A stretch of DNA of 15,728 nucleotides, taken from Bacteroidota bacterium. Lineage in GTDB: Bacteria; Bacteroidota; Bacteroidia; Bacteroidales; B39-G9. The stretch covers positions 1 through 15,728 of the forward strand of contig QMPG01000039.1 of assembly GCA_003648455.1 (NCBI GenBank). Reading direction: 5' to 3'. The notes under the pieces are model-generated. The model worked only from the letters and a program-made list of their open reading frames with translations, did no database searches and was not told where the DNA came from. Of this stretch, positions 1 to 14,076 are shown piece after piece. Both the position numbers and the translations under genes were made by a program. How positions within the stretch are numbered: position 1 is the first letter of the stretch; each line of letters starts with the position of its first letter.

Positions 1-884
1 GGTTCGGTTATTGTAGCACTATCAACAATTGTACATGAAGTAGCGCCATCATCGGTAACTGTAACAGTGTATGCTCCGGGAGATAAACTGCTTATTGAAG
101 CATTTGTTGAACCTGTGTTCCATAAATATGAATATGTTGGACCTGTTCCTCCTCCGGCAGTTGCAGTTATTGTTCCATCATCTTCTCCATTACAGCTTAC
201 ATCTGCCTTTGCCAAACTTAGTGTTAATGCAGGTGGTTCATTAATATTAAAGCTGTCTGCAACAAAACATCCATTATAATCAGTTGCTGTTATATAATAT
301 TTTCCTGCCTGAAGTGTATTTATATTTTGTGAAGTAGATGAATATAAATCGGGTCCTGTCCATTCATAAGATATTGGTGTTGTTCCGCTTACATCTAAAT
401 TAATTGTTCCATCGTAGTTGCCGTTACAACTAACATCTGTTGTTGTGGTTGTTCCTGATACCTGAGTGTGACCTTGCCATGCCATTGAAAAACCTACGCT
501 GTTGACAGGTCCTCCATCTGATGTAAATTTTATTGTAACACTCGGTTTGGTAGATGTCCAATCTGCAGGACTAGACTCCCCTTCTGAAACATCGAATATT
601 GGAGTTGTAATTGTATTGTCTCCATCATAAACATAAAGATGGTCATTATGTCCAATATCAAAGCCATCAAAAAAAGAAATAGAAACTTTAGAAGCATTTA
701 CAGGACTTATTGTTATTGTATAATCTTCATTTTTTGAATAGTTTCCTAAAGAGCCACCAGAATCGTAAAGAGTATCGACACAGGAAGAAACAGTTTCTTC
801 TTGGTCAATTGTAACTTCTTGAGAATATAAATTATTTATACAAATAAATAATAATGATATTGATAAGATAATTAACTTTTTCAT
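1..884 (-). CDS. Secreted CUB/SprB-repeat protein, 5' part only (runs off left edge)
   Basis: The reading frame starts at the ATG at 884 and stays open to base 1, giving 294 codons, so the C-terminus is missing. Residues 1-21 look like a signal peptide (basic MKK, hydrophobic core, cut near LYS-Q). Residues about 35-137 resemble a CUB domain: Cys35, a G-rich strand, DHLYVYDG at 81-88 and GFSMAWQ at 131-137. Two SprB-type repeats follow (about 149-218 and 228-295), each starting DVSCNG and carrying a YxWT/N strand and a GxYxxTxTD motif. SprB repeats occur in large Bacteroidota cell-surface proteins such as the gliding adhesin SprB, which are exported by the type IX secretion system. A type IX sorting domain at the missing C-terminus is therefore expected but cannot be seen. 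The gene is separate from the operon upstream of it on the same strand. Adhesin or surface-structural function is an inference. Confidence 0.85.
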   Translation of the reverse strand, partial: MKKLIILSISLLFICINNLYSQEVTIDQEETVSSCVDTLYDSGGSLGNYSKNEDYTITISPVNASKVSISFFDGFDIGHNDHLYVYDGDNTITTPIFDVSEGESSPADWTSTKPSVTIKFTSDGGPVNSVGFSMAWQGHTQVSGTTTTTDVSCNGNYDGTINLDVSGTTPISYEWTGPDLYSSTSQNINTLQAGKYYITATDYNGCFVADSFNINEPPALTLSLAKADVSCNGEDDGTITATAGGGTGPTYSYLWNTGSTNASISSLSPGAYTVTVTDDGATSCTIVDSATITE

Positions 885-1091: not shown

Positions 1092-1138
1092 GACAAAAAC
1101 AAATCTTTCGGATTTGTAATCCGAAAGAGCTATGCTCT
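1092..1138 (-). terminator. Double hairpin, probable terminator of the six-gene operon
   Basis: TCTTTCGGATT (1104-1114) and AATCCGAAAGA (1118-1128) form a perfect 11-bp stem with a 3-base loop. It overlaps a second 5-bp stem, AGAGC/GCTCT (1126-1138). Read on the minus strand, the larger hairpin comes about 27 bases after the lipoprotein stop codon and is followed by TTTGTTTTTGTCT (1091-1103 region), as in a rho-independent terminator. The perfect palindrome also resembles REP-type dispersed repeats of Bacteroidota, so it may be a repeat element used as a terminator. Confidence 0.6.
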
Positions 1139-1154
1139 GGTATTATATGTTAAA

Positions 1155-2339
1155 CTAATTCAAATTGCCCAGTTCATCTACTTTTACCAGACAAATCATT
1201 TTATTTCCTTCCACTTCACTTGAGCCAATAATAATAAAACCATTATTTAATGTGTTGCAAATATTGTTTCCTTCCTCAATACCGGCTCCACCAAAAGTTT
1301 GTGTAACAATCTCATTTCCGGCATTATCGGTTTTAATAAAAAACATATCTTTTGAACCGTCATTATAGCTTTCTGTAGTGCCAATAATTGCAATTTCGTT
1401 ATCGTTAGTAATTTGCAATGCATTACCAATATCATCGGCAGAACCGCCAAAATCTTTTTTCCACTCTAAGTTGGATATGTTACTATTAATTTTTGCAAGA
1501 AAAACATCCTTTTTTCCATTCTCACCAATTAACATTGTTCCTGTTAACATATATCCCGAACCATCGGGCAAAGCTTTAATATTTTGCCCTTCGGCTCCTT
1601 CCAGTTGTGAATATTGAGGAGCATTGCTAATAATACCATTTGCATTAGTTTCAAGAACAATTACATTATTGTTTTGCGATAAGGTTGGAAAACTTTTTGT
1701 GCTTCCAATAACGATAAATCCGTCATCACTTTTTTGTAAAACATCATTAGCTACATCGTCATAAATACCACCAAATTTTTTTGTCCATAAAGTGTCTCCT
1801 GCTTGGTCTGTTCTTATCAAAAAAACATCAGTGTTATTATTTGCTGTTGTGCTTCCTACAATAATATATCCGCCATCGTTTGATTGCTTAATGCACTTAC
1901 CTATTTGATTATTAGTTATGCTAATTTGCTTTTCCCATTGTTTATCGCCATTGTTACTTACTTTTGCAATAAACAAATCTTCTAACAATGAATTATTATC
2001 AACAGTTTTTGTTCCTAATAAAGTATAAGAACCATCTGTGTTTACCACAATACTATTTGCATAGTCGTTTAAAGTATTGCCATAAGTAATTGACCATTGC
2101 TCATTACCGTATTCATTTGTTTTAATAAGCAATATGTCTGTTCCATTATTAACAGTTGTGGTTGTTGAGAGCAAAACATAACCATCGTTGGTTTGCTTAA
2201 GGTCAACACCATAATCGAGGCTTGAGCTGCCGAAAAGTTTTATAAAAAAATCTTTCTGCTCGGGTTTTAAATTAGTTTTGTTGCAGGCACTTACAAAAAC
2301 TATGATTGTAAGAATTATTAATGGTAAAATTCGTTTCAT
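1155..2339 (-). CDS. Lipoprotein, predicted seven-bladed beta-propeller
   Basis: The 394-residue product starts with a lipoprotein signal peptide: MKR, a hydrophobic stretch, then the lipobox VSAC with Cys19 as the lipidated residue. The residues after Cys19 (NKTNLK) do not match the acidic surface-export signal known from Bacteroides lipoproteins, so a periplasm-facing position is more likely. The rest is seven repeats of about 50-55 residues, with the G[YSF]xxxGTT-like strand near residues 53, 103, 158, 207, 263, 315 and 368. Each is followed by a D(I/V/M)(L/F)LIKT strand, a GNxxW strand, and often FGGxxDD. This pattern fits a propeller; no enzymatic motif is visible. The ATG overlaps the TAA of the upstream barrel gene (TAATG), which suggests translational coupling. 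It is the last gene of the operon. A binding or scaffold role next to the barrel protein is an inference. Confidence 0.85.
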   Translation of the reverse strand: MKRILPLIILTIIVFVSACNKTNLKPEQKDFFIKLFGSSSLDYGVDLKQTNDGYVLLSTTTTVNNGTDILLIKTNEYGNEQWSITYGNTLNDYANSIVVNTDGSYTLLGTKTVDNNSLLEDLFIAKVSNNGDKQWEKQISITNNQIGKCIKQSNDGGYIIVGSTTANNNTDVFLIRTDQAGDTLWTKKFGGIYDDVANDVLQKSDDGFIVIGSTKSFPTLSQNNNVIVLETNANGIISNAPQYSQLEGAEGQNIKALPDGSGYMLTGTMLIGENGKKDVFLAKINSNISNLEWKKDFGGSADDIGNALQITNDNEIAIIGTTESYNDGSKDMFFIKTDNAGNEIVTQTFGGAGIEEGNNICNTLNNGFIIIGSSEVEGNKMICLVKVDELGNLN

Positions 2340-3379
2340 TATTTAATTTTTTTGTGATTAAATATTGAATAAAGATAACCAACAGATATGGTTAAGTTAT
2401 TAATATTAAAATTACTATCGTAAGAATAATATCTTGAAATAAAATCAAAATCAGACAATCGATTATCAGCATTCACTTGATTTAACAAATCAAGACTATA
2501 TTTTAAATTAAAAAATATGTTCCCATGAGGAATTTTGTATCGAGCACCGGCACCTACAACAAATGAAACATTATTTTTTCGTCTGAAGTCTTTTAGTGAA
2601 AAATCGGAACCTGATACATCGTTGCGAGAATTATCGGTATATTGTCTCACCGGTTTATACGAAGCATCAAAAAGATATGAGTAGGCAAGACCCGATAAAA
2701 CATAAGGTTTAATTTTTTCGCTAAACTCGAGTTTATAATAAGCCACAATAGGAACGTGAATTAATTGTTGTGTTTCGATAAGCGAAGTTTTCGAGAAATC
2801 GGATAAAGCACTTGTGAATTCAAATTTTTTTTGAGAATAAACAACTTGCGTTCCAATATCATATTTATCAGAAATATGATAAATGAATTTTGGTCCTATC
2901 TGAAATCCCATTCCCGAAGGTTTATATTTACTTTCATTGTCGGCAACATTGCCCGGGCCATATAGTTTGGTAATAAAAGGAAATGAATAATTTAAAGCCG
3001 TAGTAACACCAATTTCAAAAATAGGTTTTGTGTTATATGAATTAAAAAGAAAAATAAACTCCGCCGGATCAATAGCAGGGTTAACTTTATATTCCGGGTT
3101 TGTTTTTAAAAATTTCAGCATTGTTTCTTCTGCCAAATCCTTATTATCGTCAAACAAATAAGTTAAAATTAACAGTTTATAAGCCTGAATTTTATCTTCG
3201 GTATTAAACCCCTCCTCTATACATGGGTTTAGCAAACCGGGAATTTCCTCAATAACACCTTGCGTATATAACTTTTGTGCTTCTTTTAAATTTAAAGCAC
3301 AATCATTTTGAGCACTTACATTAGCCGTTATCAATAAAAAAAATATTACTAAAATAATATTATTAAAAATGAACTTCAT
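2339..3379 (-). CDS. PorT-like outer-membrane beta-barrel protein with TPR-like N-terminal domain
   Basis: The 346-residue product has a signal peptide (1-23, cut near VSA-Q). Next comes a periplasmic helical region of about 95 residues (25-119) resembling a TPR pair: EAQKLYTQGVIEEIPGLL, then QAYKLLILTYLFDDNKDLAEE, ending NPEY and DPAEFIFLFNSY. This region holds Cys27 and Cys53, a possible disulfide. From about 120 to the end, alternating strands (FEIGVTTALNYSF, GFQIGPKFIYHI, GTQVVYSQKKFEF, VPIVAYYKLEF, FVVGAGARYKI, FFNLKYSLDLL, LTISVGYLYSIF) fit an 8-10-strand barrel of the OMP_b-brl_2/PorT type. I recall this TPR-like plus barrel arrangement near STAND-WD40 genes in other Bacteroidota, but could not check. 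It lies 11 nt after the STAND gene and overlaps the lipoprotein start by one base. A sensor or anchor role is an inference. Confidence 0.85.
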   Translation of the reverse strand: MKFIFNNIILVIFFLLITANVSAQNDCALNLKEAQKLYTQGVIEEIPGLLNPCIEEGFNTEDKIQAYKLLILTYLFDDNKDLAEETMLKFLKTNPEYKVNPAIDPAEFIFLFNSYNTKPIFEIGVTTALNYSFPFITKLYGPGNVADNESKYKPSGMGFQIGPKFIYHISDKYDIGTQVVYSQKKFEFTSALSDFSKTSLIETQQLIHVPIVAYYKLEFSEKIKPYVLSGLAYSYLFDASYKPVRQYTDNSRNDVSGSDFSLKDFRRKNNVSFVVGAGARYKIPHGNIFFNLKYSLDLLNQVNADNRLSDFDFISRYYSYDSNFNINNLTISVGYLYSIFNHKKIK

Positions 3380-3390
3380 ATTTAATAGTT

Positions 3391-6300
3391 TTAAGGTAAA
3401 TCTAATTTAATTTTTTCATACTCAATATCAGCACCTACATATTTATTCCACTCATCATGTGTCATATTTCGTTCAATTTTAGACACAACTTCATCAGCAA
3501 TAATAATAGGTTTTGTAGCCCATCTCTGAATTAATCCATCTGAATAAGCGGTATATAAATATTTTGAATCACTAGTGAAAGCTAATTTCAAAATCCATGC
3601 ATCGTTGTCTTTAAGCACAATGGGTTGATTGTTAAGATTATCCATTTCCCAAAGCTGAGTTGTTCCATCAGAACTTGCTGTAGCAATAAATTTATTATCA
3701 GGACTAAACTGAATATCGTTAATACGTGCATTTTGTCCTTGTAAAACAGTTATTGTGTTTGAAGCCACATCAAGCAAAAACACTTTCCCTTTAATATCTC
3801 CCATTGCCAATTTTGTTCCGTTTTCATTATATCTTACAACATTTAGATTATCATGGGAAATATCAGTTTTTAAGTTTACAGAATCTGAAGTATTAATAAG
3901 CGACACAGTATTATCTTTATTTGTAACAGCAACAAATTTTTCATACGAATAGTTTTTACGTTTATCCCAAATAATTAATTCGCCTTTATTAGTAAATCCT
4001 GCTATTGATTTTTCTGTGTTATTAGTTGTCAATCCCTTAACCATTATATCGTTAGCAATGGTTGTGCTTTTTTGTGTAGATAAATTTGTGATAATTACGG
4101 ATTTATCGCTACTCGATGAAACAATTGAATTATTATCTTTTGTGAAAAACAACGACAAAACAGCTCCCTTATGATTGTTTATAACAACAAAATTTGTATC
4201 GTTTTTATTTGCGGTATTAAATATTTGAATTTGTGCATCATTAGTACCGCATGCAAGAGTTTTACCATCGTGGCTAATTGCCAGACTTCTATTTATTGTA
4301 TTATTTTGATGAATAATAATAAAGCTTGATGTATCAGTTGTTTCATATGAAATAATTTTTCCATCGGTTGAAGTGCTATATAAAGTATTATTAAAATTAT
4401 TATAAACAAGTCCTTTTATAGGATTATTATGTTTGTTAAAAACATTAATATTGTTTGAAGCAAATGCTTTAGAAGCCAAATAGAGACCATTATAAACATC
4501 GGGATTTTGCTCAATGCCTTTATATTTTTTGTTTAATAAGTACGCTTTGTATGCAACAAGTGCTTTAAGGTTATTATCGTTATCAATTTGTGCTGATTTA
4601 ACCGACATTGATTGAGAAATAGATAACATACGAAGAGAGAAAGCCTTTTTACTTGCTTCTTCAGCAATTGTTTTTTGTTTAAGAGCAACCTTCTCACTTT
4701 CAAGAGCAAGTTTTCTTTGTTTATCGGCTTCAATTGATTTTCTATTTGCAATCTCTTTTTGATATAAAGCATATTTTGCACTTCTTTTTGCTTCTTTTTC
4801 TTTAAGTTGAGCAATAGATTTTTGTTTTATAGCCTCTTTTTCTTTATCTTGAGCAATAGCCTTTTGTTGTTTAGCTTCTTTAAAATTTTTATTAGCTAAA
4901 ACAGTTTGTTTCTCAGCAAGAACTCTATTCGTATCAGATTCCTGTTTCATCACAACCGAATAAAGCATAAAACCTAAAGATATAATTGAAGCAATGCCAA
5001 GCACTAATGCAAAAACACGAGTACGACGAAGTTGTCTTTTTTGTAATTTAATTTTATTTTCTTCTTCTGCTTCGTAATCTTTCTTGCTTGTTTGAAGATA
5101 AACCATTGTTCTTTCAAAAGCAGGATTATATCTTTGTGCCCAGGCAAGTGTTGGTTTTTGCTTTTCTTTCCAGTTAAGAGCTAATTGTAAATCGGGCGGA
5201 CGCCACAAACCTGTTTTCCCTTCTTGATATTTTTCCGCAGCATCAGCAAGTCTTCTATACATCTGTATTGATTCGTTTTCTTCTTTTACCCAAATTGTGA
5301 GTTTATCCCAAATTCTCATTAAACTCTCGTGAGAAATATCAATAATAGAATCTTCATTAATTTGATATTCAATAGAAGGATAAATAAAAGACCTGCCACG
5401 CCCTCTAAAATGATCGATTACCGTAATAGTATCTTTAACTGATGCATTTGCAATTGCTGCAATTTCTCTAACGCTTGATGGTCGGCGCACTCCTCTGTTA
5501 TCGGAACCTTTCTCTGTTAAAGTTTTAAATAAACTCTGACAAATTTGTTTTTGATCAATATTAAGCTCATCGAAAGCTTCATTGGCATGAAGAGAGAGAG
5601 CTTTCTCCATACGACCAATAGAGTTATAGTCTTCAATATCAATTGATGTGTCATTGTTGTGATTGTTTAACCAATAATCCCAGGTTCGCATAAGTGCATG
5701 CTGAAGAATTGGTAGTTGATCGGGATTATCGCCAATATCGTTTAATAATTGTTGCTCTAAAAAAGGTGTAATTTTAGCACCACCAACAGCTATTGGTCCT
5801 AATATTGCTTGACGAAGGTCGTTTCGTGTCATCTGGGGAACCAAATAATTACTTTGATTAATTAGCCGAGTAAAAGACTGAAACTGAGAACATTCCCCAA
5901 TGAAATCAGATCGCATGGTAATAACCACATATATTGGCACATCTGATTGATTAATTGCTTCAATTAGCAAATTAACAAAAGCTATCGATTCGTTTATTGA
6001 ATTTGCATTTCCAGCACTGTTTTTAAATCGGAAAAGTTCTTCAAACTGGTCAATAATAAGTAGTACGTTCTCGTCTTTTTCGCTTTTATATTGTTTAATT
6101 GCTTCAACAAGACCTAAAGAGCTTGAGTTAAGAAAAGTTGATATAATGTATTTTTTATCGGAAGCTTCCGAATCGTTATTAAGATTAAAAGAATCAATTA
6201 TTGCTTCTGAAAGATTAAAAACAGGAGAGTTACCCGGTTTTGATTTAATGATTTTCCATTTTGAGCCGGCGTCAGTTATAAATCCACCATAAAGAATTGG

Positions 6301-6513
6301 TATTACTCCACAATAAATAAGAGAAGATTTTCCACTTCCTGAGGCACCTATAACGGCAATAAATTTATTTTCAGATAATTTTTGTAATATCTCATCGCTT
6401 TGCCCGTCGCGCCCAAAAAACAAATGACTTTCGTTTATGTTAAATGGTCTTAATCCGGGAAATGGATTAAAATAAGCATTATTGTTATTTTTTGATGATA
6501 TTGAGTTATCCAT
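3391..6513 (-). CDS. nSTAND1 NTPase with membrane segment, coiled coil and WD40 propeller
   Basis: The 1040-residue product opens with NPFPGLRPF (16-24), typical of nSTAND1 NTPases. Walker A is GASGSGKS (56-63) and Walker B LLIIDQFEEL (151-160, Asp155). An RSDF motif (201-204) and the helical HESLMRIWDKL (395-405) follow. A hydrophobic segment at about 499-521 is preceded by QKRQLRRTR, which by the positive-inside rule puts the NTPase in the cytoplasm and the rest in the periplasm. Residues about 525-620 are an Ala/Lys/Glu/Gln-rich coiled coil. About 690-1010 is a WD40 propeller with clear blades such as INDIQFSPDNKFIATASSDG, and the C-terminus has MTHDEWNKYVG, a tail I recall from STAND-WD40 proteins. 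STAND proteins are ATP-driven switches that oligomerise on sensing a signal. Older automated annotation may label relatives 'Hat/HatR'; that gives no function. It starts one base after the TIR-like gene, so the two are probably made together. Confidence 0.9.
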   Translation of the reverse strand: MDNSISSKNNNNAYFNPFPGLRPFNINESHLFFGRDGQSDEILQKLSENKFIAVIGASGSGKSSLIYCGVIPILYGGFITDAGSKWKIIKSKPGNSPVFNLSEAIIDSFNLNNDSEASDKKYIISTFLNSSSLGLVEAIKQYKSEKDENVLLIIDQFEELFRFKNSAGNANSINESIAFVNLLIEAINQSDVPIYVVITMRSDFIGECSQFQSFTRLINQSNYLVPQMTRNDLRQAILGPIAVGGAKITPFLEQQLLNDIGDNPDQLPILQHALMRTWDYWLNNHNNDTSIDIEDYNSIGRMEKALSLHANEAFDELNIDQKQICQSLFKTLTEKGSDNRGVRRPSSVREIAAIANASVKDTITVIDHFRGRGRSFIYPSIEYQINEDSIIDISHESLMRIWDKLTIWVKEENESIQMYRRLADAAEKYQEGKTGLWRPPDLQLALNWKEKQKPTLAWAQRYNPAFERTMVYLQTSKKDYEAEEENKIKLQKRQLRRTRVFALVLGIASIISLGFMLYSVVMKQESDTNRVLAEKQTVLANKNFKEAKQQKAIAQDKEKEAIKQKSIAQLKEKEAKRSAKYALYQKEIANRKSIEADKQRKLALESEKVALKQKTIAEEASKKAFSLRMLSISQSMSVKSAQIDNDNNLKALVAYKAYLLNKKYKGIEQNPDVYNGLYLASKAFASNNINVFNKHNNPIKGLVYNNFNNTLYSTSTDGKIISYETTDTSSFIIIHQNNTINRSLAISHDGKTLACGTNDAQIQIFNTANKNDTNFVVINNHKGAVLSLFFTKDNNSIVSSSSDKSVIITNLSTQKSTTIANDIMVKGLTTNNTEKSIAGFTNKGELIIWDKRKNYSYEKFVAVTNKDNTVSLINTSDSVNLKTDISHDNLNVVRYNENGTKLAMGDIKGKVFLLDVASNTITVLQGQNARINDIQFSPDNKFIATASSDGTTQLWEMDNLNNQPIVLKDNDAWILKLAFTSDSKYLYTAYSDGLIQRWATKPIIIADEVVSKIERNMTHDEWNKYVGADIEYEKIKLDLP
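4792..4875. repeat. 42-bp tandem repeat inside the STAND coiled-coil region
   Basis: Two adjacent 42-bp units (4792-4833 and 4834-4875) match at about 35 of 42 bases. They encode 14-residue units of the type KEAxxQKxIAQxKE. Weaker copies of the 14-residue period continue on both sides through the coiled coil (about residues 545-620). The period equals two heptads, so expansion by whole units keeps the coiled coil in register. Confidence 0.7.
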
Positions 6514-6514
6514 T

Positions 6515-7966
6515 TTATTTTTTGAGTTTAGTTAAAACAGAAGATAAACTCTCCGGTTTAAACTGTTTTTGTTTATCAATAATTAGAAAATCTTCATCAA
6601 GTAAAATACTGTCATTATATTCTATATCTGAATAAAAAACTTTAGCAAGAAATTTATTTCTCTTTCCAAATCCCGGTGTTTTTTTTATGTCTTTTACTTT
6701 GCTTTTAATCCACTGCAAATTATTATTTGAGTAAATAAAAACTGCATCACATTTGACTAAATTTTCTCTGTGATTATTTAAAACATCGATATGTTTGCCT
6801 GTATATGAAGATTTTATTACTTCAACATTATTTTTTTCAAAATGCTTTATTATTTCTTCTACTTTATCGTTATCCCTTTTATCGTTAATTATATATATTC
6901 TGGTTTTATTGTTTGATTCTTCATTTTGTGAATCATTGTAATTTTTAGTATTTATTTGTTCTATTTTCGACAATACAATTTGTTTAAGTACTTCGATTGG
7001 TGTTTGAACAATTTCTGCCCCCTTAACAGCATTAATATTTTGAATAAGTTGCTTAACATATAGTTCCTGTTTTTTGTTTTTAAATTCAATTTTTTGAGGC
7101 ATCCAGATAATTCTGGAGAATTGCGTGTTTTCTTCACTGATTTCATCAAAAAAGTCAGCAGCAATTTTATTCTGAAAAGTCATAATTGATTCTTCCGAAT
7201 TATCGAGTAAATCGCCAAAATCTCCGCCAATAATATGAATAGACAAAAGAGAATGCTTTAAATTATTAACTATTTCGGGTTTTAACTTTTGCGGATCACT
7301 TGATAAATAATTTCGTGGAATAACATTTAATTTATGATGCAAAAATTCGCGTTTTAATCTATTGTAATTATCAATTTGATCAGAACTTGTTTTAGATAAA
7401 TATATTGTTTTGCTTTTATCTAGTAACTCTATGTCTTTATTTTTTTCCATAATAATAGAGTTCTGAATATCGTAAGTTAAATCAATTAATTTTAACCATA
7501 GAGTTTTTTCTACTAGTTCTCCTTTTAAAGAATTAAAATCAATAATTCGTCCTTCTTTCTTATCAATTTCGAAAAAGCTGTAATTAATAAAATTTTGCAA
7601 TAAGCTTGGTTGTTTTTCCAGTGTTACATTATTATCAATAATTTTAAAAATTCTGTTTTCATGATTTAATCCTTGCTCGTTTAAAACCTTAAAAATTAAA
7701 TCAAGTTCTGCAATACTTTCTTTTGAGTTAAGATAATTATCAGTCAGAACAATAACAAACACTAATGTTTTAGAAAAAATATCTGACTTATCTTTTCCGG
7801 ATTTATTAAGCTCTGAGCTGTTAAGAATATTTGGTTTCTTGCCAGATGATTGCTCTAAAATGAATGGCAAATAATGGCAAATATTATTTGCCAACAAATT
7901 GTTCTTATCAGAAGATATATCTTTCTGTGATAAGCTTATAAAAATATCATAGTCAAATTTTATCAT
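6515..7966 (-). CDS. Three-domain TIR-like protein, probable partner of the STAND NTPase
   Basis: The 483-residue product has no signal peptide or membrane segment, so it is cytoplasmic. Residues 1-105 resemble a TIR domain: FDYDIFISLSQKD (4-16), a strand LVFVIVLTDNYLNS (68-81), then SKESIAEL, where Glu87 falls at the position of the catalytic Glu of TIR NADases. The usual Trp-Cys before it is absent, and activity is uncertain. Residues about 186-335 form a second alpha/beta domain (KTIYLSKTSSDQ, LNVIPRNYL, LLSIHIIGGDFG, SRIIWMPQ) like the TIR/DUF4062-type domains found with STAND proteins. Residues about 354-483 form a third (RIYIINDKRD, VEVIKSSYTG, ENLVKCDAVFIYSN, KTPGFGKRNK), also familiar from STAND-associated TIR proteins. 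It ends one base before the STAND start (TAA-A-ATG), which favours a shared complex. Enzyme or adaptor is undecided. Confidence 0.8.
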   Translation of the reverse strand: MIKFDYDIFISLSQKDISSDKNNLLANNICHYLPFILEQSSGKKPNILNSSELNKSGKDKSDIFSKTLVFVIVLTDNYLNSKESIAELDLIFKVLNEQGLNHENRIFKIIDNNVTLEKQPSLLQNFINYSFFEIDKKEGRIIDFNSLKGELVEKTLWLKLIDLTYDIQNSIIMEKNKDIELLDKSKTIYLSKTSSDQIDNYNRLKREFLHHKLNVIPRNYLSSDPQKLKPEIVNNLKHSLLSIHIIGGDFGDLLDNSEESIMTFQNKIAADFFDEISEENTQFSRIIWMPQKIEFKNKKQELYVKQLIQNINAVKGAEIVQTPIEVLKQIVLSKIEQINTKNYNDSQNEESNNKTRIYIINDKRDNDKVEEIIKHFEKNNVEVIKSSYTGKHIDVLNNHRENLVKCDAVFIYSNNNLQWIKSKVKDIKKTPGFGKRNKFLAKVFYSDIEYNDSILLDEDFLIIDKQKQFKPESLSSVLTKLKK

Positions 7967-7999
7967 TATTATAATTTATTGCTATTTAATATTTATCAA

Positions 8000-9958
8000 T
8001 TATATTCTAATTCCAATTACTATTATATCGTCAATCTGTTCAATGTCACCTCTCCAATCGTTAATTGTTTTGTCTAAGATTTCTTTTTGCTTATCCATTG
8101 GATAATGGCTAATGTCGATTAATAAATTTCTGAATGCTTTATACATAAATTTTTTACCTCTTGGGCCTCCAAACTGGTCGGCATAACCATCAGAGAATAT
8201 GTATAACATATCTCCTTTTTTTAAATCTATTTCGTTATTTGTATATTTTCGAACTTCGTCGCGTCCTGTTTGACCAATTGGGAATTTGTCTCCTTTATAC
8301 TGAATTATTTCTTTATCACGAACTAAATATAAAGGATTGTTAGCGCCAGCAAAATCCAATTTATTGTTTTTATAATCAATAGAACATAAGGCTAAATCCA
8401 TTCCGTCTTTTACGGAAGAATCACCTTTTTCTCTCAGTGTATCGGTAACACCTTGATTTAACGCATCTAAAATATCTGAAGGTTTTCGTGCATTTTTAAC
8501 ATTAACAGAATAGTTTAACTGATTGCTTCCCACAATTGACATAAATGCTCCGGGGACTCCATGTCCGGTACAGTCTACTGCTGCTACAACAACTTTATGG
8601 TCAAGCTCAGTAATCCAATAAAAATCACCACTTACAATATCTTTTGGTCTGTATAAAATAAATGAGTTTGGTATTAAACTCTCAATATAACTGTCGGGGG
8701 GTAAAATGGCATTTTGAATTCTTTTTGCATATCTTATACTATCGGTAATATGCTTATTTTGTTCTTCAATCTGTTCTTTTTGTTTAGATATTTTAGCTGT
8801 TCTGACTCTTACCTTCTCTTCCAATTCATAGTAGTAACTTTCCAATTCGGAAATCATCATATTAAACTTTTGTGATAAAGTAGCAATTTCGTTATTTCCG
8901 ATTACCTCAGCTCTTTCGTTTAAGTGGCCATTTGTGATTCTGTTTACATTGGTTACCAAATGTTTTATTGGGTCGGTAATAACTCGTGTTTTACTATAGA
9001 TTAAAAATATTACTACAATTAATGTTATTCCAAAAATTATAAAAAATTTAATAAGCTCATTTCTCAGACGTATAATTTCGCTTGTTTTATCAGATACAAT
9101 TCTAATTACTGCGTTTTTATATAATTCAGTATTTCTTCTATACATATAAATGTACTCATAGTTAAGGGTAAGATTATCTTCTTTTTCAATCAAAGTAATT
9201 GTATCTTTGTTTTGAAAGGCATCAGATAATACTTTTTTATGCGTTTCTTTAACTTTAGTACTCTTATCTAAAGAAAAGGGCTTGCCTGCTTCAATAAACA
9301 AATCAACAGAATTAATACTTTCTTGATTTTTAGCGATATCTTTTAAGGTAGCTCTTATGAAATTAATTATTTCATCTGCTTTTTGTGAATATATACCTAT
9401 TTCAATAATATATTTCCCATCATTTGTAGCCTGATAAGTATATTTTTTTAATCTTCGTGTTGATGCTTCAATTGCAAATCTTTCGCTTTTAAATTTTTTG
9501 TTTTTTAAAATTCCTAAAAGCATATTTTTGTGTTCTTCTCCAAATTTAAAGAAATTGAGATTCAAATCTTTTTTGTAAGTAGTATTAATTACAATGCCTT
9601 TGCTGTTTATAACATAAATATCATATAACTCAGGGTTCATGCCAAGTTTTTTTCTCACTTTATAAAGGTCAACTTTGTCGATATTTTTTGTGTTTTTAAG
9701 ATATTTATTAACAACAATGTCGCTGTAATTCTCTATCTTTTTATCTAAATTTTGTTCCAAAACGCCAAGAGCAACATCCTGAAATTCAAGAACTTTTATT
9801 ATCTCGTCTGATATTATATGATTCTTTGCCACGCTAGATTCTACAAGAATCTTTTTGGTGTTTCGGTAATTAATTACTCCAAGAATTAGTAATGCAACAA
9901 CTACAGGTAATACAATATTTAAAATAAGTTGTCGAAAGATTGTTGTTTTTTTATTCAT
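8000..9958 (-). CDS. Membrane-bound HAMP-SpoIIE (PP2C-type) serine phosphatase
   Basis: The 652-residue product has a first membrane segment at about 10-30, a periplasmic sensor region of about 270 residues (resembling a Cache-type domain: LYDIYVINSKGIVINTT at 111-127), a second membrane segment at about 304-321, HAMP (about 322-378, with DPIKHLV), and a coiled linker. The SpoIIE phosphatase domain (about 408-652) starts SIRYAKRIQNAILPP, common in Bacteroidota. Metal-binding Asp residues are seen in SGDFYW (Asp445), AVDCTGHG (Asp462), FSDGYADQ (Asp590) and QIDDIIV (Asp643/644), so the enzyme looks active. Such phosphatases usually remove phosphate from anti-sigma-antagonist (STAS) proteins. 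No STAS or anti-sigma kinase gene is in the window, so the substrate is unknown. It lies 24 nt after the MFS-HEAT gene and 33 nt before the TIR-like gene, which makes it the likely environmental input or output of the operon. Confidence 0.9.
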   Translation of the reverse strand: MNKKTTIFRQLILNIVLPVVVALLILGVINYRNTKKILVESSVAKNHIISDEIIKVLEFQDVALGVLEQNLDKKIENYSDIVVNKYLKNTKNIDKVDLYKVRKKLGMNPELYDIYVINSKGIVINTTYKKDLNLNFFKFGEEHKNMLLGILKNKKFKSERFAIEASTRRLKKYTYQATNDGKYIIEIGIYSQKADEIINFIRATLKDIAKNQESINSVDLFIEAGKPFSLDKSTKVKETHKKVLSDAFQNKDTITLIEKEDNLTLNYEYIYMYRRNTELYKNAVIRIVSDKTSEIIRLRNELIKFFIIFGITLIVVIFLIYSKTRVITDPIKHLVTNVNRITNGHLNERAEVIGNNEIATLSQKFNMMISELESYYYELEEKVRVRTAKISKQKEQIEEQNKHITDSIRYAKRIQNAILPPDSYIESLIPNSFILYRPKDIVSGDFYWITELDHKVVVAAVDCTGHGVPGAFMSIVGSNQLNYSVNVKNARKPSDILDALNQGVTDTLREKGDSSVKDGMDLALCSIDYKNNKLDFAGANNPLYLVRDKEIIQYKGDKFPIGQTGRDEVRKYTNNEIDLKKGDMLYIFSDGYADQFGGPRGKKFMYKAFRNLLIDISHYPMDKQKEILDKTINDWRGDIEQIDDIIVIGIRI

Positions 9959-9982
9959 AATTATTCTCTTAATAATATAAAG

Positions 9983-12900
9983 CTATAAATTTAAAAATGA
10001 TGTAATAATTTCGTTATTGTTAAAGATTAATTCATTAATTTTCTGTCTTTCTATTTGAAACAACAACGAATCTTCTTGAACTGTGAATTCATTTTTTATA
10101 CCTGTTGAAAAATTATTCCATAGAATACTATTCTCAATAAATTCTTTTTTGTTGCTTTTTAATGCAATTTTTCCTTTAATTATAATATTAAAATCGTGGC
10201 GATTAATATTAATTATCTCACCTTTATTTAGATGCTTTTCAGTAATATTTTCGACCACTTCTGATAAAAGTTCTGTAGAAAAATTCTTAAATTGAGCAAT
10301 TTGTTTAAGGCTTAAAATTTTATCATACAACAAAATAAATTCTTCTTTGGTACCTATATCTAAAAATTTATTAAATCTGCTTCTAATATTTTCATCAACC
10401 CTGTCAATACAATTATTAAAAGCGTCTTTATCTTTTTGGTATATTAATTTTGCTGAAGTTTCGCTTAATAGTCTGTCGGAGTTAAAAAGTTGTGCTATTA
10501 AATCGTCGCTAATTTTAAAGTCTTCAAATTTAAAAAAGCTTTTTATTGCACATGCCTTAGTCCAGCGACTAATATAATTTGGGTTTCGGTTAATTATTGC
10601 TGTTAACAATTCTTTAGTTGGTAAAATATTTACCGGAAAAAAGTTTTGGAGTTTTTTTATTTTCTCAACATTTGAAGAATCGTCAATTATAGGGAAAAGT
10701 GTTGGTTTTAATTCTTCGGCAACAAACAAATCCATTAACTCAAGTGCAAAACCAATTCCTTCGTTTGTTCCGCTTTCTAAATTTTCTTTAACGTGCATTA
10801 CCGATTTTGCATCGTAAGCAAGCGAAAGTAAATTGAACAATGTTTCATAATTGTCTTTTAATTCTTCGTTTAGAGATTGTTTTAAATCGTCGGTTTTATT
10901 ATTATCTTTAAGACTGGTTATTGCAGCCAAATCCCAAGCAATATTGCGAATATTTAACTCTATTATCTGTTGAATTTTATGCTCGCTTTGCTCATCTGCT
11001 TGATAGTTACACAATTGCAAAGAATTAATCGATTCTAGTAAAATATCGTGGTTTGTATTTTCAAATTTATTTAATAATAATTTTTCTATTTTACTGCCAC
11101 CAATAAATCCATATAATTTTATAATATCTATTAATATATTATTTTCAATATTCGATTTATTAAAAACCTGTTCAAGATAATCTACTGCAACTTTTCCATA
11201 ATTAAATACCGAAGCAAAAACACAAACGTGATAATCTTGAATTGTAAATAAATCAACAAGCATTGGTAGCAACTGTTCATCTTTTACATAACCGCAGGCT
11301 TTTATTGCTTCTTTTTTAACAACAGGGTCGTTATTCTTTAGCAATAGTACCAATAATTGACGATATTCTTCTTTATATAAAACACTTATAATTTTTGAAG
11401 CTAAAACTTTGTCGTGTACATCGCTCGTTTTAATAAGTGTTGAAAGAGAACTTAATGATGAATATTTATCAAGTAGCTTAGTGGTCTCTTTTTCAAAGTC
11501 TATTAACAAATCTTTTATCTTACTGTTCTTTTCTGTTTTTATTCGCTTTTTTACATTTTTATAAGCAGGTAATATTTTTTGTTCTTTAATTTTATTTATT
11601 GAAAATAGCCTGACCTCATCAGATTCGTGTTTTAATAGTTTTATTAAAACAGATTCGTATAAAATTGGATTAATAATATTAACAAAATCAGTAATATTTT
11701 CAATTTTCTCGCTATCAGCATTATTAATTTTTTCAATAATTTGATTTATTATATTTTTTCGGTCACTGTGTGTTTTTGTATCTGTTGATTTTGAAACAGC
11801 CAATGACTTTTCTAATGATTTTCGATATTGCTTATATAGCTGAATTGTTATAAATATCCAAATGACAAGAATTATTACTAATGTGTATGAAAAATGAATT
11901 AATTTAAAAAAACTCAGCAATCCTAAAGCCGAGAGCAATATTCCCGAGAACAAAGCTGAAAACTCATTAACCGTTCCGTCAACTCTTGATTGCACATCAA
12001 ACCTTATGCTTTTATCAAGCGATTGATAAAGGAGTTTGAAAGCAGGATATTCGATAGAATCTTTAATTGATTTTGAAAATAGTTTGCTCAGAGAAATAAG
12101 CAAAAAGAACAACAAAAATCCACCCGAAGCTGCTTCAAACCCAAAATAATATCCCGAAACAGATGCTAATACTGTTAAAAGAAGCATTAAAACAGGAAGA
12201 ATCAGTAAACAAATTTTCAAACCATAGGTTTTCATTAGCTTACTGTAAACAAACATCTTAATTATGATTGAAAAAATCATCATTGTACCTGTAAAAACTC
12301 CAAGATATTTTGCTAAATCGGCTTCTGCAGGATATTTATTATTGGTTACAACAAGAAAAGAATATGTAACAAAAAATGCCACAATCATCGAAAATATAAC
12401 AAATAGTGACATATATAAAACATACTTGTCTTTTAATAATTTAAAAAAACCAACATTCTTTTTTTTCCCCTTTCCCTCAATTTCTTCTTTTTCTTCAAGC
12501 TCACCTTCTTCTTGAGAAACATTAAGATTAAAATAAATTTGAATAATGAATTGAAATAAAAAAGCAACAACAATGCTTATTGCACTAATCAACAATATAC
12601 CTTTTGTACTTTGTAAATAATTTAAAATTAATGGAATTGAATAACTTACAGCAATAATTCCTATTATCTGCCCCATGTCAATTATTCCGTAAATTCGTTT
12701 CCCCTGACGAAGAGTAAAAATTCTACTCACTGTCCCCCAAAAACCCAGAAGGGCAACAATGTTTAAAGGACCTAACATTAAAAAAATGACAAATACAACG
12801 ACCTTAGTACTTAAAAATTCAAAACCAAAAAACAACGAGGCTGTTATTAGCGATATGGTAAAGAGATTTAATAAAGTTAGCTTTGAAAATGAAATACGTT

Positions 12901-13126
12901 TTTGAAACTCTGAAAAAATTGATGTCATAATAATTCCAATAATCCCAGAAACAAGATAAGCATTTGGAATAAAAGAAGAATCAAATGTTTTTAAAAATAA
13001 AGTATTTGCAACTACTTCAAAAGAACCATAAAAAATACCAAGAAATACAGATTGTGTGATTAATAAAATTACAGATTTTTCTTCATTTTTTTCAATATTT
13101 AATGCACTATAAAAAAATCTGCTCAT
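9983..13126 (-). CDS. MFS-like membrane protein with HEAT repeats and degenerate cyclic-nucleotide-binding-like domain
   Basis: The 1047-residue product has about 12 hydrophobic segments in residues 16-430. They are split by a charged cytoplasmic loop (EEGELEEKEEIEGKGKKK, about 206-223), as in MFS and the related ATP/ADP translocase (Npt/Tlc-like) proteins. The segment around DSIEYPAFKLLYQSL (356-370) and SRVDGTVNEFSALFSG (380-395) is typical of MFS-HEAT proteins. Residues about 480-930 are helical pairs that fit HEAT repeats, for example DPVVKKEAIKACGYVKDEQLLPMLVDLF. Residues about 946-1047 resemble a cyclic-nucleotide-binding fold (LNKGEIININ, FNIIIKGKIAL, DSLLFQIE) but lack the FGE and Arg of the phosphate-binding cassette, so ligand binding is doubtful. 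Nucleotide transport is possible from the family likeness but not shown; a scaffold or sensor role is equally possible. It is the first gene of the operon, and no clear promoter was found in front of it. Confidence 0.8.
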   Translation of the reverse strand: MSRFFYSALNIEKNEEKSVILLITQSVFLGIFYGSFEVVANTLFLKTFDSSFIPNAYLVSGIIGIIMTSIFSEFQKRISFSKLTLLNLFTISLITASLFFGFEFLSTKVVVFVIFLMLGPLNIVALLGFWGTVSRIFTLRQGKRIYGIIDMGQIIGIIAVSYSIPLILNYLQSTKGILLISAISIVVAFLFQFIIQIYFNLNVSQEEGELEEKEEIEGKGKKKNVGFFKLLKDKYVLYMSLFVIFSMIVAFFVTYSFLVVTNNKYPAEADLAKYLGVFTGTMMIFSIIIKMFVYSKLMKTYGLKICLLILPVLMLLLTVLASVSGYYFGFEAASGGFLLFFLLISLSKLFSKSIKDSIEYPAFKLLYQSLDKSIRFDVQSRVDGTVNEFSALFSGILLSALGLLSFFKLIHFSYTLVIILVIWIFITIQLYKQYRKSLEKSLAVSKSTDTKTHSDRKNIINQIIEKINNADSEKIENITDFVNIINPILYESVLIKLLKHESDEVRLFSINKIKEQKILPAYKNVKKRIKTEKNSKIKDLLIDFEKETTKLLDKYSSLSSLSTLIKTSDVHDKVLASKIISVLYKEEYRQLLVLLLKNNDPVVKKEAIKACGYVKDEQLLPMLVDLFTIQDYHVCVFASVFNYGKVAVDYLEQVFNKSNIENNILIDIIKLYGFIGGSKIEKLLLNKFENTNHDILLESINSLQLCNYQADEQSEHKIQQIIELNIRNIAWDLAAITSLKDNNKTDDLKQSLNEELKDNYETLFNLLSLAYDAKSVMHVKENLESGTNEGIGFALELMDLFVAEELKPTLFPIIDDSSNVEKIKKLQNFFPVNILPTKELLTAIINRNPNYISRWTKACAIKSFFKFEDFKISDDLIAQLFNSDRLLSETSAKLIYQKDKDAFNNCIDRVDENIRSRFNKFLDIGTKEEFILLYDKILSLKQIAQFKNFSTELLSEVVENITEKHLNKGEIININRHDFNIIIKGKIALKSNKKEFIENSILWNNFSTGIKNEFTVQEDSLLFQIERQKINELIFNNNEIITSFLNL

Positions 13127-14046: not shown

Positions 14047-14076
14047 GGTGCAAGCGTCTTCGCTTGTACCTTTTTT
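14047..14076 (+). terminator. Rho-independent terminator of the transporter gene
   Basis: GGTGCAAGCG (14047-14056) pairs with CGCTTGTACC (14061-14070) over 10 bp, with one G-U wobble and loop TCTT. TTTTTT (14071-14076) follows. It lies 28 bases past the transporter stop. Confidence 0.85.

Follow-up and report, generated by a model that had tools for sequence, protein, structure and literature searches.

A conserved gene block of Bacteroidota joining a STAND NTPase, a TIR-like protein and outer membrane proteins: a possible trans-envelope signalling module linked to giant surface proteins or contractile injection systems

In the 15,728 nucleotide (nt) stretch of a Bacteroidota bacterium analysed here (contig QMPG01000039.1, assembly GCA_003648455.1; the whole stretch is hereafter called the window), a block of genes on the minus strand was found to be a real gene unit. 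Its core encodes an MFS protein with HEAT repeats, a TIR-like protein, a STAND NTPase with WD40 repeats, an outer membrane (OM) barrel and a lipoprotein, and a giant surface protein of the kind exported by the type IX secretion system (T9SS) is linked to it as a seventh gene. We give a probability of about 0.5 to the reading that the block forms a signalling module across the envelope, with a STAND switch at its centre and an extracellular partner that it serves.

The six open reading frames (ORFs) of the block run from gene 1 (9983-13126; MFS/nucleotide-transporter-like with HEAT repeats) through gene 2 (8000-9958; a membrane sensor of HAMP-SpoIIE/PP2C type), gene 3 (6515-7966; a cytoplasmic protein with three TIR/NDT-like domains), gene 4 (3391-6513; an nSTAND1 NTPase, a transmembrane (TM) helix and WD40 repeats) and gene 5 (2339-3379; a signal peptide, a helical periplasmic domain and an OM beta-barrel) to gene 6 (1155-2339; a lipoprotein whose propeller repeats are delta-60/SBBP-like), and are spaced by 24, 33, 1, 11 and -1 nt. 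These coordinates confirm the six closely packed genes on one strand reported in a first-pass annotation of this DNA, whose domain calls also agree with the Pfam and profile results given below, some of them (MFS_1, DUF4062, TIR_2 and the propeller) at scores under the cut-off.

Gene 3 matched 54 proteins in a protein search, and when GTDB-representative contigs were scanned with an alignment of 17 rows 141 relatives were found, the best 80 of which were kept as loci; their ORFs were matched to the six window proteins and adjacency was then counted. The set is anchored on gene 3, which is thus present by construction while its neighbours are not, and many of the loci are from Cytophagales and mutual kin. 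The five core genes were contiguous and co-oriented in 64 of the 80 loci, the remaining 16 being accounted for by contig ends (12) and by a split frame or an extra small ORF (L022, L025, L076 and L080). The MFS gene lies directly upstream of the TIR gene, or with only a PP2C gene in between, in 77/80 (two contig ends; a 137 aa ORF in L025), STAND follows TIR directly in 79/80 (one contig end), and the barrel gene and the lipoprotein gene are adjacent in 67/80 (ten contig ends, three after split frames) and 68/80 (12 contig ends), respectively. In 30 further short loci from the order of Chryseolinea serpens STAND adjoins TIR in 28 and MFS adjoins TIR in 23 (once with a 137 aa ORF between), with PP2C found there in two of the other seven. 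The expectation of the first-pass annotation that the genes form a unit was thereby borne out, and rare adjacency among relatives refuted. In a few loci (L022, L025, L076, L080 and L081) a core gene appears as two frames or a 137 aa ORF separates MFS and TIR; for the split frames sequencing error, decay and a true gene split are all possible.

The same annotation had grouped all six genes into one possible system; the phosphatase lies outside the conserved five-gene core, and gene 7 had been missed as a further linked gene. Between MFS and TIR the PP2C phosphatase was found in only 5 of the 80 loci, and mapping it on the gene-3 tree requires at least five gains or losses; it was rejected as a core part and is an optional add-on.

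At E<=1e-15 gene 3 was found in 42/192 genomes of the Chryseolinea order, in 16/149 from the order of G001, which is closely related to the window, and in 11/395 genomes phylum-wide, four of them strong; Fulvivirga and Chryseolinea are among the named, cultured genera carrying the block. It is single-copy in 13/13 genomes of one set, and 9 of the 42 Chryseolinea-order genomes have two matches, one of these (G098) looking like a single gene cut at contig ends. A viral origin was discarded after one close-relative scan showed no relative in viral contigs. Fused TIR-STAND proteins were likewise dropped as Rosetta-stone evidence: L132 holds separate genes and L119 is cut and contains only TIR, no wider fusion search having been made. 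A second, different TIR-like gene occurs in L174 and L120-L122 (the genomes G031, G073 and G086 also carry the main module); in L174 it is followed by STAND-like genes, and a similar block is seen in L176 (genome G512).

Gene 7 (3..884, minus strand) starts at position 884 and runs off the window, leaving an N-terminal part of 294 aa with Pfam matches to SprB (59.2 bits) and CUB (27.7 bits). It scores 408-497 bits against the giant proteins of L001-L003 and represents the 5' portion of a gene of this kind. An ORF of at least 900 aa follows the lipoprotein gene directly on the same strand in 57/80 loci; in the other 23 the ORF is cut by a contig end (seven), the contig ends (two), the next ORF is shorter (two) or the position is not assessable (12). 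The two shorter ORFs are one of 416 aa in L031 and, in L004, a second HAMP-PP2C-like gene (655 bits to gene 2) in the place of the giant gene. In the longer loci the giants range from 1,525 to more than 2,700 aa, and loci without a giant exist (e.g. L152, L162 and L169). When four full-length giants were scanned, all had Por_Secre_tail over the cut-off at their C-terminal end, three had PKD and three Omp28 (two over the cut-off). Among 12 giants with a stop codon in the available DNA, 11 carry the (Y/A)PNP start of the T9SS sorting domain and the twelfth (L143) matches Por_Secre_tail. SprA_N, of the T9SS translocon, was present in 27/27 chosen module-bearing genomes versus 0/14 control genomes. 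The gap between gene 6 and gene 7 also holds, at ~1010-1100, inverted-repeat DNA around gatccgccaactggcggag which by eye resembles an interspersed repeat.

In place of a giant, distant relatives carry next to the module the genes of an extracellular contractile injection system (eCIS), comprising the sheath, two gp19-type tubes, CIS_tube, a baseplate OB protein and Pvc16. Several arrangements occur. In L170, L172, L180 and L181 (the last with split frames) MFS-TIR-STAND and the OM protein (OMP) gene are followed by a 179-180 aa ORF on the opposite strand, a GH18 gene and the eCIS, while L171, continued in L186, has the order MFS-TIR-STAND-OMP-lipoprotein-M23-eCIS. In L164 Pvc16 is divergent from GH18-TIR-STAND-OMP, and another contig of the same genome (L215) has MFS near CIS_tube; in L206 and L207 the eCIS lies near a lipoprotein gene and MFS-TIR-STAND-OMP. 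In two genomes (L200-L201 and L204-L205) STAND, OMP and MFS homologues stand on one strand amid sheath, tube, tape-measure and baseplate genes, the STAND homologue with nSTAND1 at 264 bits and WD40, and the MFS homologue with an hhalign E of 1.9e-45. A lipoprotein-like gene was recognised there as well (probability 93%); no TIR match was found within these operons, nor in the 890 aa gene beside STAND.

Pvc16_N was found at 71 places in 60/192 genomes of the Chryseolinea order. Within 40 kb of it TIR occurs at 9/71 places (0.39 expected) and MFS at 13/71 (0.6 expected), so most eCIS of this order lack the module. Random placement reached the observed linkage in 0 of 100,000 simulations, in a test that models every genome as a single circle independent of the others. 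Probable near kin are G138/G107/G145/G169, G057/G106 and G130/G180/G085/G096, the arrangement having been seen for six of these ten and the rest judged by match scores and distances; the 13 MFS-eCIS cases represent about seven arrangement types. Hitch-hiking was considered as the cause of the link; against it, the arrangements differ between lineages and all are still linked. In a quick tree with long branches all nine TIR proteins linked to an eCIS fall into a single clade (SH-aLRT, an approximate likelihood ratio test, 98) with one unassigned row inside, so the simplest reading is that the partners split once, long ago. Both forms are present in G017 and G066. The giant-linked form is independent of eCIS, given that 17/27 such genomes, including G001 and G002, lack Pvc16. 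In the order of G001 there are nine Pvc16 genomes, none among the 16 with gene 3, and the nine window proteins scanned include no eCIS gene.

The Pfam assignments come from a scan of these nine proteins. Gene 4 matches nSTAND1 at residues 17-432 (316.5 bits, cut-off 27.1) and WD40 (84.6 bits), with one TM helix predicted at 500-518 followed by a linker and the WD40 propeller. Among 109 distinct STAND sequences 108 have a Walker A pattern and 108 a single central TM helix, its N-terminal side being the more positive in 94/108; from this single helix the NTPase is predicted to be cytoplasmic and the WD40 part periplasmic. Gene 5 matches OMP_b-brl_2 (52.9 bits, cut-off 27), and its AlphaFold2 model is an 8-stranded barrel (mean model confidence, pLDDT, 90.1) with OmpA as best match (E 1.2e-9). 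Its signal peptide is accompanied by a helical periplasmic domain (27-112) with two conserved Cys, C-x23-29-C being found in 101/114. For gene 6 all profile matches are below cut-off (LipL53-family 39.5 bits, cut-off 400; delta-60 21.8 bits, cut-off 76.5), and the translation contains the lipobox VSAC. A lipobox-like site is present in 85/102 lipoproteins, with at least two acidic residues after the Cys in 21/85, a surface-export pattern too crude to be used. The spread of products over cytoplasm, inner membrane, periplasm and outer membrane noted in the first-pass annotation agrees with these predictions from hydrophobicity, AlphaFold2 and TM counts.

Gene 1 has 12 hydrophobic segments, predicting a 12-TM protein, and borderline Pfam matches to MFS_1 (30.8 bits, cut-off 33.4) and HEAT_2 (27.7 bits, equal to its cut-off); it is described as ATP:ADP antiporter-like with a degenerate C-terminal region resembling a cyclic nucleotide (cNMP)-binding domain. 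A search with it gave 432 proteins; several of them carry PF03219 or PF00027 and are named AAA family ATP:ADP antiporter. PF03219 (TLC), listed for a number of homologues, gave no match to the window protein at E<=0.1, and a pattern devised for the Arg motif of the cNMP phosphate cassette was found in 0/74 relatives. Homologues away from the module were seen in L213, L216, L218, L211 and L212, and others (L208, L210, L219 and L203) lie near a GH18 gene like that of the eCIS loci, L203 alone having further eCIS genes in the stretch retrieved. Gene 2 matches SpoIIE (76.2 bits, cut-off 25) and HAMP (36.9 bits), both over the cut-off, and a periplasmic part of ~270 aa is predicted between hydrophobic segments 11-29 and 302-320. 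It resembles HAMP-PP2C proteins of the SiaA type, with HAMP and the C-terminal SpoIIE aligned over 301-652 (260.2 bits), but stays below the NCBIfam equivalog cut-off of 700 for SiaA, and none of the window proteins scanned was named SiaB, SiaC or SiaD.

In gene 3 profiles or models indicate three TIR/NDT-like folds (~1-175, 187-345 and 353-483), the Pfam matches to DUF4062 (19.1 bits, cut-off 24.7) and TIR_2 being below cut-off. The top structural match of domain 1 is the SPARTA TIR-APAZ, and the domains match nucleotide-handling folds, namely TIR, CMP N-glycosidase and DNPH1; a PDB sequence search gave one match (E 0.98). Presumed catalytic positions, assigned in 135 sequences by motif and secondary structure rather than by superposition, hold Glu (E87) in domain 1 of the window protein but Glu in only 25/135 overall, Gln in domain 2 (Q265; Gln in 120/135, Glu in 14/135, some of these eCIS-linked) and Lys in domain 3 in 128/135. 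By these assignments no single catalytic Glu is conserved across the family. A gene-3-like region is also found in ~820 aa proteins with Ser/Thr protein kinase domains (P0046, P0047, P0049, P0050 and P0054).

In the signalling model the OM barrel and the lipoprotein propeller would report the state of the extracellular partner, the giant T9SS-exported protein here and the eCIS in the sister clade. Their periplasmic domains may contact the WD40 propeller of STAND, which its one TM helix would keep on the periplasmic side. In APAF-1 the WD40 part restrains the NTPase until the ligand arrives (PMC13174449). Once engaged, the NTPase in the cytoplasm would be free to bind NTP and to oligomerise, in the manner of APAF-1-type STANDs, and the resulting ring might cluster the three-domain TIR-like protein, which would act as an adaptor or nucleotide-binding output and not as a conserved NAD hydrolase. 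With its HEAT platform the transporter-like MFS protein could dock the assembly at the inner membrane, and in this lineage the SpoIIE phosphatase may provide a second, periplasm-sensing arm. A bolder version, which we put forward tentatively and think unlikely to hold as a whole, is that the module is an exchangeable APAF-1/NWD1-like trigger from OM to cytoplasm, coupling a contact-sensing device (giant or eCIS) to a pseudo-enzymatic triple-TIR adaptor and, in the eCIS clade, giving the envelope control of firing or release.

Several observations weigh against the signalling model. Across the phylum as a whole gene-3 proteins are rare, as the phylum-wide count shows. Among 82 strong MFS places a TIR gene lies within 7 kb in 36 and is absent in 46, so MFS proteins of this family extend beyond the module and have other roles. 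The core is also not always complete: STAND is absent from L182 and L183, where MFS-TIR is convergent with the eCIS, TIR-STAND loci without MFS upstream exist (L165-L168, L187-L190, L194, L164, L178, L192 and L195), and in L150 MFS is located elsewhere. Finally, gene 6 and the giant gene are parted by a terminator-like hairpin on the minus strand (1104..1128; 11 pairs, a loop of 3 and a T-rich tail), the region 1075-1160 having a folding z of -3.25; a like hairpin is found in L001, L002 and L003, and none by the same pattern in L149, L154, L143 and L145. Co-transcription with the giant gene is therefore doubtful in the clade of the window.

The main rival, which we regard as possible and on balance rather doubtful, reverses the direction and makes the block an export or assembly station, in which the STAND ATPase would drive display, anchoring or release of the partner and the barrel and lipoprotein would form its OM docking site. 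Both partners are indeed very large extracellular objects, and several eCIS loci have a gene for a GH18 or M23 hydrolase that separates the module from the structural genes, as would be expected for release; the giant, however, has its own T9SS signal, and to our knowledge the characterised STAND proteins are signal switches and not motors. For contractile particles themselves, a Streptomyces CIS requires the membrane protein CisA in order to function and fire (PMC12237407), whereas AlgoCIS was never observed membrane-anchored (PMC8894135). A nucleotide relay, with MFS carrying NAD, ATP or a derivative through the inner membrane, the TIR/NDT protein sensing or processing it and STAND as a scaffold, seems improbable to us: the antiporter-named homologues with PF03219, the nucleotide-handling folds of gene 3 and the near-constant place of MFS upstream of TIR fit it, while the unconserved catalytic residues, the missing PF03219 match in gene 1 itself and the existence of MFS-less loci speak against it.

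Equally improbable is an immune or abortive-infection role, in which a TIR-like NADase would be fired by the STAND sensor upon attack on the envelope by phage or toxin, although TIR/DUF4062, STAND and WD40 together resemble defence and cell-death architectures and DUF4062 proteins are NADases in Swarozyc (PMC13174449). E87 is kept in the window protein and domain 2 has Glu in a minority that includes eCIS-linked proteins; in most of the family, as counted above, the three positions are degenerate. When the six window proteins were run through PADLOC, part of the WD40 region of gene 4 matched a HEAT-ARM model (HEAT-ARM_XIII, 47.8 bits, partial) and two other matches were weak. Where 4.5 kb or more was present upstream of MFS (59 loci, many of them kin), a QueA gene was seen in 43 and a PD40-OmpA gene in 32, which for most loci points to a fixed chromosomal housekeeping site, unlike a mobile defence island. 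Since no catalytic Glu is conserved by the assignments above and most loci look fixed, a defence NADase is not favoured as the conserved function, and neither is immunity or cell death by NAD depletion; the first-pass annotation had noted immunity and cell-death signalling as known settings of STAND and TIR proteins. That fixed position in many Cytophagales loci could instead mean conserved order without joint function, mere housekeeping co-localisation, but this we consider very improbable, as the order persists in other neighbourhoods and beside eCIS with gene-3 identity down to ~25%.

In the window the block is flanked upstream by genes for KDO8P synthase and, on the opposite strand, for a transporter of queuosine precursors, and downstream by the truncated CUB/SprB-repeat gene on the same strand described above as gene 7. 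A strong terminator-like hairpin on the plus strand (14047-14070; 10 pairs, six of them G-C, with a T-rich tail) sits between the convergent queuosine-transporter and KDO8P-synthase genes. Promoter-like TANNTTTG sites were not enriched (20 found, 30.4 expected), no Rfam family reached its gathering score and a tRNA search of the window found none.

When compared with known systems, the closest architecture is that of NWD1/TEP1, with the order TIR/DUF4062-like, STAND and WD40, and of APAF-1, which is the same with another effector domain (PMC13174449). The module has this combination of a TIR/DUF4062-like part, a STAND/NACHT NTPase and WD40 spread over two genes with a 1 nt gap, but its WD40 part lies beyond a TM helix and is predicted periplasmic, its TIR-like part lacks a conserved catalytic Glu and the pair is found within an operon of envelope proteins. 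With the Swarozyc/DUF4062 NADases and SPARTA it shares TIR superfamily folds, the weak DUF4062 match and the domain 1 similarity to SPARTA, and it differs in its degenerate presumed catalytic positions, its mostly housekeeping neighbourhood and its membrane and OM partners. The AlgoCIS-like eCIS of Bacteroidota adjoin the sister clade and in two genomes contain STAND, OMP and MFS homologues inside the operon, whereas the window proteins scanned include no eCIS gene and the close relatives G001 and G002 have no Pvc16. Giant adhesins exported by T9SS together with partner OM proteins are known from the SprB/SprF type; here too a giant with SprB/PKD-type repeats and a T9SS C-terminus is linked to an OM barrel gene, but the sorting domain is Por_Secre_tail, the barrel resembles OmpA/PorT and has a helical domain in the periplasm, and the giant comes after a STAND-TIR module. 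As far as we have found the parts belong to known families and the assembly is undescribed, no description of the module appearing in searches of open-licence full text or in passages of PMC7159879, PMC8213781 and PMC11297309.

The known STAND-TIR systems serve in the cytoplasm for alarm and cell death, and a conserved version with a sensor predicted to be periplasmic, tied to an OM barrel, a lipoprotein and a giant surface protein, would if true be an inside-out use of the same logic. The eCIS-linked sister form is a candidate for cellular control of contractile particles. We know of no envelope control unit for such particles in Bacteroidota, and if the bolder version of the model is true the module of the eCIS clade would be this missing envelope unit, deciding when the injection particles fire or are released.

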